From positions 22,922,377 to 22,986,376 of the forward strand of contig NC_091944.1 of assembly GCF_041260155.1 (NCBI RefSeq): a stretch of DNA of 64,000 nt, read 5' to 3'. This stretch comes from Ptychodera flava. Taxonomy: Eukaryota; Hemichordata; Enteropneusta; Ptychoderidae. This document shows, piece by piece, positions 9,133 to 57,870 of this stretch (position 1 is its first letter; each line of letters begins with the position of its first letter). The position numbers and the translations under genes are program-made. The notes below the pieces were generated by a model, which ran no database searches, had not been told where the DNA came from, and saw only the letters and a program-made list of their open reading frames with translations.

Positions 9133-9318
9133 TTATACAAAATTCAAATTTTGAAAATCTTCACCCATTTTACCCGCCATCCAGTCATAGTATGACGTCA
9201 CTTTTGCGAACCCTTGCGGGTCACGTGGTCCTGCGCATGTGTAACCAAAGGAGGTTGCACCAATGACATAAAAAAGTCCGTCTTGGGCAAGGTAACTGAC
9301 AGGTCCACCACTATCGCC
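9133..9318 (-). CDS. Exon 37: trypsin domain 2, Ser195, C terminus and stop
   Basis: After tgtatcacag it reads GDSGGPVSYLAQDGLFYVIG, then ATSFGYTC (Ser214, Phe215, Gly216) and DPQGFAKVTSYYDWM, with stop TAA at 9133-9135. His57, Asp102 and Ser195 are all kept, so protease 2 should be catalytic, with a small, neutral and open S1 pocket. The C terminus extends 12 residues past the usual end. Confidence 0.9.
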   Translation of the reverse strand, partial: GDSGGPVSYLAQDGLFYVIGATSFGYTCAGPRDPQGFAKVTSYYDWMAGKMGEDFQNLNFV

Positions 9319-9537
9319 CTGTGATACATCGACGTAAAAAAATTATTCACAGTGAACATATCCTTCTGGAAGATAATAAACATTTCTGAAGAAATGTCTG
9401 TGCCTGGTACAACAGTGACAGTGAGACAGTTTCTCTCTAAAGATGGTGGCAAGTTTCGGCTAAGACACCATGATCACAACAAAGGTCAGCATAACATTGC
9501 CAAGAAGAGCGACTGAAAAGTGGATATGTATACTTAC

Positions 9538-9671
9538 GTAACACGTCCCTATGTAATGTCTTCCGTAGCCCAAACATATCATTGCGTCTGTCTTTACGTA
9601 AATGTGTAGCTTGCACGCCTCGTCTGGGATGATCGGTATTCTGGCGTACCGGAGATGGGAAGGATAACTAC
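9538..9671 (-). CDS. Exon 36: trypsin domain 2, residue-189 region
   Basis: SYPSHLRYARIPIIPDEACK ... DAMICLGYGRHYIGTCY. By spacing to GDSGGP, residue 189 is Gly (in IGTCY) and 190 is Thr, so the acidic trypsin specificity residue is absent. Phase 1 in, phase 0 out (TAC|GTAAGT), as in exon 17. Confidence 0.9.
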
Positions 9672-9728
9672 CTGCGACAACACAGATGAACATAGGCAAG
9701 AAAAACATGTCACACAAGCGTACATCAA

Positions 9729-10024
9729 AAGAGAATGCGCCTTTGGGGGGTGGATATTTGGACTCTCAAACTTTTGCAATAATTTTTGGGTCTACCACTT
9801 GGTGGGGGGTTCTCTTTGAATCTTTCGGGCAGGAGTAGCTTTGAAATGCCAAGAGTAAGTAAATATAGGATAACTTGTTTTTTTAATACTCAGTTATGCA
9901 TGGTGTCTTGACCCCTGAGTTTTGTTCTTGTTTTCGAAAGACAATGATTCAATGATTATCTTACCTTACGAAAATTTCGCGCGAAAGTTTGAGACTTTCA
10001 ATTTTGCGGCACGTTCAACCTTAA
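9729..10024 (+). repeat. TTAA MITE (family A), degenerate copy
   Basis: The left block (gcgcctttggggggtggata ... ggactctcaaacttttgca) and a worn right end ending in accttaa bound a copy whose middle has diverged. In intron 35. Confidence 0.5.
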
Positions 10025-10466
10025 TCCTATAAAACAACTTGCTTGCATTTTGTGTTTAGGAAAGTTAGGGTATCTCCACACGAAGTATGAAAACGTTTGG
10101 CATGGTCGTCATCACCTATGTCAATACGATACAACTTTCTGTCAACTGTCAATGAGGATAGTATTTTAATGGGTAGATAATATACATTGTATATATACCG
10201 CTGACCTAGTAGTAATTTCAGTGCGACACTTCGTGTGGATTTTGATGGTCCCAAACTCTGAGCAAGTATATTTGTTCACTTTTATCACACTGGACTTACA
10301 CGTATCTTATTTTTTGCTGTACACAAAATATGCATTCACATAATTGATGTGTAGAGGCCTTAGTATCCCCACCATTTTTTACAGTTACAAAAAGTGATGT
10401 TTGAGCTCCTTTATTTTGCTTAGACGTTCATTTTTAAAGTCAAAATGAATAGGTAGATGATCTCAC

Positions 10467-10738
10467 CAATTTCCCAAACTTGTCCCCAACCAGAGATGTA
10501 AGCATAGTCGCCGGCCTCAAAAGTGATGTCTCTCGGTGGCAAACACGCAGGCTTTACGAAGTTGTTCAACGTAAAAGGTTTTGTTGTATATATAAGGCCG
10601 AAATCGCCGTCATAAGTACTGCTCGTGAAATTTTCCATATAGTAAAGAGCTTCTACTTCAACAGTCTGCATGTGGCTGGAGTCTACGTCCGGGTCGACAA
10701 ATCCGGCCTTCACGGCGACAGCGAGTCCTTCTTCATCA
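10467..10738 (-). CDS. Exon 35: trypsin domain 2, Asp102
   Basis: IDEEGLAVAVKAGF ... YDGDFGLIYTTKPF ... VKPACLPP ... YISGWGQVW. The Asp of GDFGL is residue 102; the usual DIALLKL is altered to DFGLIYT. It spans phase 2 to phase 1, as in exon 16. Acceptor tatatggcag, donor TTG|GTGAGA. Confidence 0.9.
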
Positions 10739-10939
10739 CTGCCATATAGAATGAATTCAATATTGACCTATATTCGTGTGAGCAATAATTTGGCTGTGAA
10801 GTCGAACTAAGGGTATGTTGATATGTCATTACAAGCAGAGAATACGTGTCAATGTAGCTGACAAGAATGTAATGTGCCTAAACGAGATTTGCAGTCTGAT
10901 TGCATACTGGTCAAGCGAGTCACCTGACGCAAATATTAT

Positions 10940-11108
10940 AGAAATAACGGGCGACGCGCTGACCATTAACGTTTCTTTATGGGCAAGGGCGAGAGGAAAG
11001 CCAAAAATTAACGGGCGAGGCTTGCCGAGCCCGTTAATTTTGGCTTTCCTAGAGCCCGCAACCATAAATAAACGTTAATGATCAGGGCGGAGTCTGTTAT
11101 TTCCATTA
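10940..11108. repeat. Foldback hairpin element
   Basis: Arms of about 75 bp (ataacgggcgacgcgctgac ... aaaattaacgggc, mirrored by cccgttaattttggctttcc ... gtctgttat) with about 80 percent identity around a short apex gaggcttgccgag. In intron 34. Confidence 0.7.
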
Positions 11109-55416: not shown

Positions 55417-55484
55417 CTGAAACCGGTCACTTCTGTTCTGATGTAGATGTCACTGTGTTGGCTTCGGGCATACGTATCGTCCAT
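55417..55484 (-). CDS. Exon 4: SEA domain, middle
   Basis: 68 bp between gttaacag and CAG|GTATGC, reading MDDTYARSQHSDIYIRTEVT then GF. It continues the SEA fold (F..S.....Y..TEVTGFR). The phase 0 start and phase 2 end match its neighbours. Confidence 0.8.
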
Positions 55485-55901
55485 CTGTTAACATACATTT
55501 AAGGTACAGAGAACAAACATATCCTACAATATTTACTTCATTCATTGAGGTTTAAATATTCCGTCGTGAAACTACTGAAGAAAACCTTTTTAAAAACTTT
55601 TCTTATGTATTTATGATCATGATACGGTTCTGGTTCAGTACATTACATCAGAATAGACTGCAACAGCGTTCGTTGGCATCTTTGCCTGATTATTTTTCGA
55701 TCTCCTTATTTGAACGAGTCGTCCATTTTCAATCAGATTCAACTTTGAAAAGGGCGCGTCTGATTGTTGTTCTAGAATGAAGGCACAATTTGTCGACGCC
55801 AAGTCATACGCGAAGTCCCATACCCAAAAGTCTAGGTTCGCATCTGAGTGACGACTGTTTGACAGACAGTTAATTGCCAATTTGTGGTTTTATATACTCA
55901 C

Positions 55902-56074
55902 CATATCAATAAAGACACGTTCCATTTCTTTATACTCTGACGATAGCGGTTCTTCATACGCCGGAGAGTAATCGATGGCACTTCCGTAAAGCTGGCTCAC
56001 TGTGACCGATCCCTCCACCGCTGTCAGCGTAGACGCTGCTTCATTTGTGTAAAGTCCGGTGGTGGTGATTTCGT
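55902..56074 (-). CDS. Exon 3: start of SEA domain
   Basis: The acceptor is ttccgaatgcag and the donor ATG|GTGAGT. The protein ends SAIDYSPAYEEPLSSEYKEM then ERVFID, the typical SEA opening (YSPxLxDxSSxEYxxL). SEA domains are common in the stalk of membrane-tethered proteases and mucins. Confidence 0.8.
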
Positions 56075-56317
56075 CTGCATTCGGAAATTTGGATAATGAG
56101 CATAAAATTGTTTTGTTGATTCCATTACTAATGATTTTGTTTCCCCGTTACTAATGGCCATGTGTATTAACATTGGCGCAGGAATATTGATTACTATGAG
56201 TAAAAACGCGCAAATGCCAAGATACATGTGTAAAGCATAACACACAAGCATGCCATTCAGGATACGGCAGAAGACAAAGGGTAAACTTAAATTTCGAACA
56301 AAATCAGTATTCCTTAC

Positions 56318-56365
56318 TTGCTATGTCGTCAGTCTTATTCTTCAATTGCGATTTGGTGTTGTACA
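56318..56365 (-). CDS. Exon 2: juxtamembrane stalk
   Basis: A 48-bp exon (VYNTKSQLKNKTDDIA) between the acceptor ttttcaaacag and the donor A|GTAAGG. It is phase 1 at both ends and joins exon 1 to the SEA exon in frame. It contains an N-glycosylation sequon (NKT). Confidence 0.7.
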
Positions 56366-56479
56366 CTGTTTGAAAATATAAGGAAAAACGATTGAAATCA
56401 ATCAAGACTATGTCGTACTTCACCGCTATGTTATAATGGTTCTGGTCATTATTCAGTTCATCTGTTGTCATCATAATCA

Positions 56480-57260
56480 CTATGATCACCACCACATCCA
56501 CCACCACCACAACCAATATCATCATCATCATCATCATCATCATCATCATCATCATCATCATCACCACCACCACCATATTCATCATCATCATCACCACCAC
56601 CACCACCACCAAATCATCATCATCATCATCATCATCATCATCATCATCATCATCATCATCATCACATCATCATCATCACCACCATCAACACCACCACCAC
56701 CATCATCATCACCATCATCATCATCATCATCATCATCATCATCATCATCATCATCATCATCATCATCATCATCATCATCATCACCACCACCACCACCACC
56801 ACCACCACCATTATCATCATCATCATCATCATCATCATCTTCATCATCACTACCACTACCACCACCACCACCTCCACCACAACCACCACTACCACTACCA
56901 CCACCATCATCATCATCATCATCATCATCATCATCATCATCATCATCATCAACACCACCACCACCACCACCACAACCACCACCACCACCATCATCATCAT
57001 CATCATCATCATCATCATCATCATCATCATCATCATCTTCATCACCACTACCACTACCACCACAACCACCTCCACCACAACCACCACTACCACTACCACC
57101 ACCTCATCATCTTCATTATCAGCATCATCATCAGCATCATCATCATCATCATCATCATCATCATCATCATCATCATCATCCTCGTCGTCGTCGTTGTCAT
57201 CGTCGTCCTCACCACCACCACAATCACCACCACCACCACCACCACCATCATCATCATCAC
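56480..57260. repeat. (CAT)n/(CAC)n trinucleotide array, about 780 bp
   Basis: Blocks of CAT alternating with CAC and minor variants fill most of intron 1. Multi-hundred-codon poly-His, poly-Ser and poly-Met ORFs on both strands are artefacts of this array. Confidence 0.95.
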
Positions 57261-57599
57261 CATCATTACCGTATCCAAGGATTTTAGTACTATATCAGTC
57301 GAACACATTTTGATCGCATGTGAATCACCAAGCTTGAGGTTGGCATGACGCATAACATTTTCCAACATCTTGAAATTATAGGCAAGTAAGGTTTATACTG
57401 GTGGAAATGTTTACATTGATATTGACATATAAGGTTATATTTAGAGTTCAAAAGTTTCATTAAGGACTAACAAAGGTTCATTTAGTAAATGTATTGAAGA
57501 CGTTCTTTTAACAACTTGAGTCGCGTCTCGTTTTTTATATAGCTATCGATATCAGATTCTATATAACGAAGAAAAGCATACTAAAGACAGTACATGTAC

Positions 57600-57870
57600 C
57601 TGTAAAGTATACAGTTGTGCAACCGATGACTAGAAACAGTGATATCGCTATAACGATGAAAATACCAATTCTTCGTGACAAGAAAACAGTAGCTTTGATG
57701 AGATCTTTGTCACTTCTGTTATCAGGTAGGACATGCTGACTGAAGTTTCTAGTTTTGATGAAACCGTCTCGACTTTTGTACTGGTAGACGGGGTCTATGG
57801 ATTCTACGGAACTACCACATGAAGACGCCAGCGATTCGGCATCCTGTGACCTTTTGGAGCAATATTCCAT
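57600..57870 (-). CDS. Exon 1: cytoplasmic tail and transmembrane helix
   Basis: The first ATG at 57870 opens a 90-residue exon (MEYCSKRSQDAESLASSCGS ...). It has a polar N tail of about 66 residues, then RR and a hydrophobic helix at residues 68-89 (IGIFIVIAISLFLVIGC). With no signal peptide and basic residues on the N side, this is a type II signal anchor. The ATG sits directly after an acceptor-like tatctttgcag, so a 5' UTR exon or a further coding exon probably lies upstream. The donor CAG|GTACAT leaves phase 1, which fits exon 2. Confidence 0.8.

Follow-up and report, generated by a model that had tools for sequence, protein, structure and literature searches.

Tenebrio Nudel is described as a membrane-anchored protein with the order LDL(2)-SP-LDL(2)-SPH-LDL(3) (PMC11172050), bee SP20 is arranged as 3LDLA-SP-3LDLA-pSP-... 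(PMC1761132), and a planthopper nudel-like protein is secreted and has one protease domain (PMC4085338). Polyserase-1 (TMPRSS9) combines three protease domains with a type II anchor in a single chain (PMC1435904), and insect corin carries Frizzled modules, LDLa arrays and SRCR ahead of the protease (PMC11172050, PMC1761132). Here we analyzed a window of 64,000 nucleotides of the hemichordate Ptychodera flava (assembly GCF_041260155.1, contig NC_091944.1, positions 22,922,377 to 22,986,376; all positions below are counted within this window), in which the module exons of two serine proteases lie one after the other on the minus strand. The splice signals suggest, but do not prove, that splicing may combine both enzymes in a single membrane-anchored product.

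The chain of module exons runs from 57870 to 9133, and the majority of its introns are in phase 1. A preliminary description of the locus had reported 37 exons on one strand in consistent phase. The single strand was confirmed; the exons that could be placed number 35, and several of their edges are weak splice sites picked so that the frame holds. The first half reads anchor, SEA-like stretch, Ser/Thr-rich stalk, two EGF modules, two Frizzled modules, two further EGF modules, a third Frizzled module and a trypsin domain. The second half, separated from the first by a gap of 2.2 kb, begins with the exon 36445-36110 and continues with seven LDLa modules, a CUB, three LDLa modules, an SRCR-like stretch and a second trypsin domain. 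The single transmembrane anchor described at the start was found there as a hydrophobic run, both trypsin domains are complete (Pfam E 3e-61 for protease 1; the value for protease 2 is given in the table), and Pfam recovered all ten LDLa modules. The second CUB and the SRCR of that description were also matched, slightly below the Pfam cut-off for the CUB and below it for the SRCR. All three Frizzled modules gave Pfam matches, and in the assembly the middle one is not in a single frame. The second half consists of 20 placed exons without a stop and encodes 964 residues. When the two halves were joined without the exon of Frizzled module 2, the 34 exons gave 1933 residues and left 32 of 33 junctions open; the sole stop fell on the artificial junction between Frizzled module 1 and EGF module 3. 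Rfam gave no match at its gathering scores.

The splice models were trained with minus-strand sites of the locus itself (28 donors, 28 acceptors). Both tested sites, the exon of Frizzled module 2, the inner CUB sites and, except for one acceptor, the SRCR sites were left out of training. The donor at 38645 (G|GTGAGC), in the last exon of protease 1, scored 4.73 and beat 21 of the 28 donors in the leave-one-out comparison. Among 3996 minus-strand GTs, 25 scored at least as high, a count that includes this donor and the training donors. The chance of an equally good in-phase donor within the 45-nt tail is about 0.6%. The acceptor at 36445 scored 1.35 and beat 10 of the 28 acceptors (226 of 3441 AGs are at least its equal). 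The two sites are compatible in phase (phase 1), and the codon at their junction is not a stop. If it is an intron, the gap measures 2199 nt. The joined model contains 34 introns (median 898 nt), and six of them are longer than the gap. The gap contains a repeat, as do other introns.

The preliminary description saw neither an anchor nor a signal exon for the second half, and we agree that the gap holds no convincing one. A strict scan of the gap, a simple one that can miss an exon, looked for ATG exons that combine a hydrophobic run of 15 residues above 1.6 and a donor above 0; it returned none. The identical scan recovered the first exon of the first half (57870-57600), which served as the one positive control. 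A looser list of the gap contained 28 ATG-donor pairs, eight of them in phase 1. Three of these eight end in T and create a stop at the 36445 junction, and the remaining five are unconvincing. In the best of them, whose open reading frame (ORF) begins 18 nt beyond the stop of protease 1, the hydrophobic run spans about nine residues and the donor is weak.

Both proteases have the His, Asp and Ser motifs, the Arg of the activation site and the preceding Cys. Residue positions follow chymotrypsin numbering. In the alignment of protease 1 to its PDB matches, Asp189 and Gly226 are kept; with these residues cleavage after Arg or Lys is expected, and protease 1 should be trypsin-like. Protease 2, aligned to Enteropeptidase-1 of medaka (3w94), carries Gly189 and Gln226; with such a pocket trypsin-like cleavage is not expected, and judging by sequence this protease should not be trypsin-like. 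The best PDB matches of protease 1 were plasma kallikrein and TMPRSS2, and that of protease 2 was the same Enteropeptidase-1 (E 7.9e-42). The two domains are 34% identical over 234 positions, and our exon reading puts three introns into each of them, at matching places and in matching phases. Given this identity together with the introns, the proteases look like old relatives rather than fresh duplicates. The tail after the last conserved Trp is 16 residues long in protease 1 and 15 in protease 2. Protease 2 (9133-11802, minus strand) lacks Cys136 and Cys201; protease 1 (38616-40331) has Cys136, and the partner of this residue is absent.

We give about even chances to the reading that the locus is one transcription unit, which encodes a type II membrane-anchored mosaic serine protease and in which exon 38807-38616 is a composite last exon. 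Without use of the donor at 38645, translation would continue for nine residues and end at the protein's own stop. This unspliced form would be a single-protease surface enzyme with the anchor, the SEA-like stretch, the EGF and Frizzled modules and protease 1. If the donor is used, the phase-1 exon at 36445 would be joined, and a two-protease surface protein would result, with LDLa, CUB, LDLa, SRCR-like and protease 2 in addition. Such a joined protein had been proposed before. The donor score and the failure to find an N-terminal exon in the gap speak for it. In the joined form, protease 1 might cleave protease 2 of its own chain and thereby activate it, with disulfides keeping both of them tethered. 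This activation in cis is possible because an Arg precedes the cut and the linker Cys is present in both proteases. The complete picture would be a single surface protein in which a trypsin-like protease behind the Frizzled modules activates a second protease. The latter would lie further out, preceded by LDLa, CUB and SRCR modules, and would be active with an altered pocket; the composite last exon would set which of the two forms a cell makes. As a whole, we consider it tentative and rather unlikely.

Several observations weigh against a single unit. The in-frame stop at 38618-38616 falls where the protease would naturally end. AATAAA hexamers are present at 38249 and 38219, and a third one, at 37649, lies within the repeat; finding one is not rare, because the minus strand of the 64 kb has 52 of them. 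A weaker phase-1 donor is present in the tail of protease 2 (score 1.64; 218 of 3996 GTs at least equal). Beyond this tail our scan gave no good Frizzled, EGF or LDLa match (best EGF E 0.39); therefore, such in-phase donors arise by chance. Besides, the donor at 38645 was tested post hoc, when the site had already been seen. The exon of Frizzled module 2 (47976-47636) switches its frame internally, next to two five-base runs. The natural C-terminus with its stop and the AATAAA signals would fit two tandem genes on the same strand, the first ending at 38616 (poly(A) near 38.2 kb) and the second starting in the gap from a first exon that was not recognized. The 34% identity of the proteases and their different best PDB matches point the same way, and membrane serine proteases usually carry one protease domain. 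This arrangement is possible, with clearly less than an even chance. However, the strict scan yields no anchor or signal exon, the phase-1 ATG-donor pairs of the gap are unconvincing or make a stop, about a third of the gap is repeat, and a strong in-phase donor at 38645 would have to be there by chance.

The second half could also borrow the first exon of the first half. The anchor exon at 57870 would then be spliced across the Frizzled-protease block to 36445, and one promoter would give two proteins. The anchor exon ends in phase 1, which exon 36445 accepts, and enteropeptidase carries its own N-terminal anchor and SEA. We nevertheless hold this improbable: a skip of about 21 kb would be required, and the sequence bears no sign of one. 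Also improbable is a decaying first half with a broken Frizzled module 2 beside a second half without a start, so that neither makes a full protein. The frame change, in an exon that is not skippable in frame, and the failure to find a start for the second half would agree with decay. However, the protease, EGF, LDLa and other Frizzled exons are open and the catalytic residues are kept, and the frame change adjoins base runs of a kind at which errors can occur in long-read assemblies. Among these explanations, the single unit with the composite last exon is the one we prefer.

In the first half, four EGF modules and the weak SEA-like stretch are additional to the preliminary description. By its N-terminal anchor, stalk modules, activation site and linker Cys, this half is a type II transmembrane serine protease, except for the frame change in Frizzled module 2. 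Skipping that exon was tried and rejected, since the junction then yields a stop. Because the exon changes frame and cannot be skipped in frame, the first half as assembled is not read through. The frame change may be an assembly error or decay.

In the second half, the first exon had been described as a CUB. This was not borne out, since neither Pfam nor PDB gave a match at E up to 10; a single-sequence AlphaFold model of the exon was uninformative (mean predicted local distance difference test score, pLDDT, 36). The later CUB region can be read as two spliced exons or as one frame-changing exon, and the two readings overlap and score equally. A frame break is unnecessary here, because the spliced reading reaches the same score and stays open in the chain. 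A search with the stretch ahead of protease 2 was topped by LDL-receptor-type proteins because of the LDLa modules. Of the proteases it returned, the enteropeptidase heavy chain aligned with the final LDLa and the beginning of the SRCR (E 3.7e-13), and TMPRSS2 with LDLa-SRCR (E 3.3e-9). At 30075-30279 on the minus strand, an ATG and a hydrophobic run (15-residue mean 2.98) lead in frame into an LDLa exon. We judged this apparent signal peptide (30279-30176) to be a pyrimidine tract read as protein, because a good acceptor sits at 30176; this is unproved, and it may be an alternative start.

Table. Features of the two-protease locus (window coordinates)
Feature	Positions	Strand	Basis or remark
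First coding exon: cytoplasmic tail and one hydrophobic anchor (type II transmembrane)	57600..57870	-	ORF; 15-residue hydrophobicity 3.28; phase-1 donor
SEA-like stretch, first exon	55902..56074	-	Pfam SEA E 0.0057 to 0.054, under cut-off
SEA-like stretch, second exon	54594..54864	-	weak Pfam SEA; exon chain; acceptor uncertain (54864 or 54723)
Ser/Thr-rich stalk exon	53404..53637	-	ORF reading
EGF module 1	52955..53065	-	Pfam EGF
EGF module 2	52496..52612	-	Pfam EGF
Frizzled module 1	50228..50584	-	Pfam Fz E 5.7e-17
Frizzled module 2	47636..47976	-	Pfam Fz E 4.3e-13, unreadable stretch entered as X; frame shifts within exon as assembled
EGF module 3	47191..47304	-	Pfam EGF
EGF module 4	42736..42879	-	Pfam EGF
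Frizzled module 3	40612..40974	-	Pfam Fz E 5.8e-17
Protease 1 exon a: linker Cys, activation site R|IVGG, His57	40163..40331	-	both edges weak, picked for frame
Protease 1 exon b: Asp102	39392..39672	-	trypsin domain match
Protease 1 exon c: Asp189	39079..39215	-	alignment to PDB matches
Protease 1 exon d: Ser195, in-frame TGA 38618-38616	38616..38807	-	ORF; splice scoring; chain; phase-1 donor right after 38645
Palindromic MITE-like repeat in the gap	37013..37745	-	self-comparison; more copies in window
First exon of second half, previously called CUB	36110..36445	-	identity unconfirmed
Seven LDLa exons, starts 32575, 30901, 30176, 26459, 23269, 21879, 21069	20962..32575	-	Pfam Ldl_recept_a, 7 stretches
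CUB region, exons 17718-17569 and 17465-17274 (alternatively one frame-changing exon)	17274..17718	-	Pfam CUB 20.6 of 21.4 bits
Three LDLa exons, starts 16559, 16230, 14750	14634..16559	-	Pfam Ldl_recept_a, 3 stretches
SRCR-like stretch, exons 13947-13788, 13115-12999, 12098-12049	12049..13947	-	Pfam SRCR_2 24.7 of 27 bits; open in chain
Protease 2, exons 11802-11637, 10738-10467, 9671-9538, 9318-9133; R|IING	9133..11802	-	Pfam E 7.6e-53; TAA 9135-9133

The repeat in the gap belongs to a family resembling miniature inverted-repeat transposable elements (MITEs), with related ends and many copies in the window; besides the palindromic copy, these lie at 23575-24027, 829-1190, 41389-41684, 57966-58284, 14156-14496 and 25868-26136. 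A LINE-type (long interspersed nuclear element) retroelement lies in one of the introns that separate LDLa exons, on the strand of the gene. Its ORF of 990 residues (26932-29904, minus strand) is open and matches reverse transcriptase in Pfam (E 2.7e-32), with endonuclease matches slightly under the cut-off. An inverted pair at 32842-33700 and 34419-35296, about 0.9 kb each and 78% identical, encloses about 0.7 kb and resembles a transposon bounded by long inverted repeats. On the plus strand, an ORF of 232 residues (31218-31916) has a weak Pfam match to Phage_integrase (tyrosine recombinase; E 0.075, under the cut-off) and may be part of a transposon or a chance reading.

In a joined protein, a single tether would hold a Wnt-type binding block and a lipoprotein-type one, each with a protease, and a two-step cascade would be built into the molecule. 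In that case, the locus would also illustrate how a two-protease gene can arise when the boundary separating two neighbours is lost while the first protease still has its stop. Otherwise, the locus would contain two genes of the type II transmembrane serine protease type, the first with an EGF-Frizzled stalk that our literature search did not find described.

Corin (TMPRSS10) combines Frizzled modules with LDLa arrays and has an SRCR before the protease. The first half is similar to it in the anchor, the Frizzled modules and the trypsin-like protease. However, it has EGF modules, and neither an LDLa in this region (scan of the window ORFs) nor an SRCR in its assembled exons (Pfam) was matched. 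Therefore, its architecture is not corin-like, contrary to the earlier proposal. The C-terminal order in enteropeptidase (TMPRSS15) is CUB, LDLa, SRCR, protease. The second half resembles it in the last LDLa, SRCR-like and protease modules, with CUB and SRCR matches just under the Pfam cut-offs, and differs in Gly189, Gln226 and the ten LDLa modules; the simple scans of the gap found no anchor of its own. Thus, the name enteropeptidase-like suits the tail by similarity and does not suit the S1 pocket, which lacks the Asp and Gly at these positions. No MAM module was seen in the assembled exons; the introns were not searched for it. Ovochymase unites proteases and CUB domains in one polyprotein and is not known to have Frizzled or LDLa modules.

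Polyserase-1 resembles the joined model in its type II anchor and in the presence of several proteases on a single chain. In contrast to the locus, it has one LDLa and three tandem proteases, with no large module block between them. Nudel, in the module listings cited above, likewise has two protease-type domains per chain with LDLa between them. Those listings contain no Frizzled, EGF, CUB or SRCR, and the second domain of Nudel is given there as a protease homolog, whereas protease 2 of the locus keeps the triad and has an altered pocket. The preliminary description knew of no described protein with this architecture. This holds for the present module set, which our literature search did not find described, and not for two-protease membrane-anchored LDLa proteins in general, which are already known (Nudel, PMC11172050, PMC1761132; polyserase-1, PMC1435904). 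Thus, if the halves are joined, their product would be a rare but already known kind of enzyme, which differs from Nudel and polyserase-1 in its module set.

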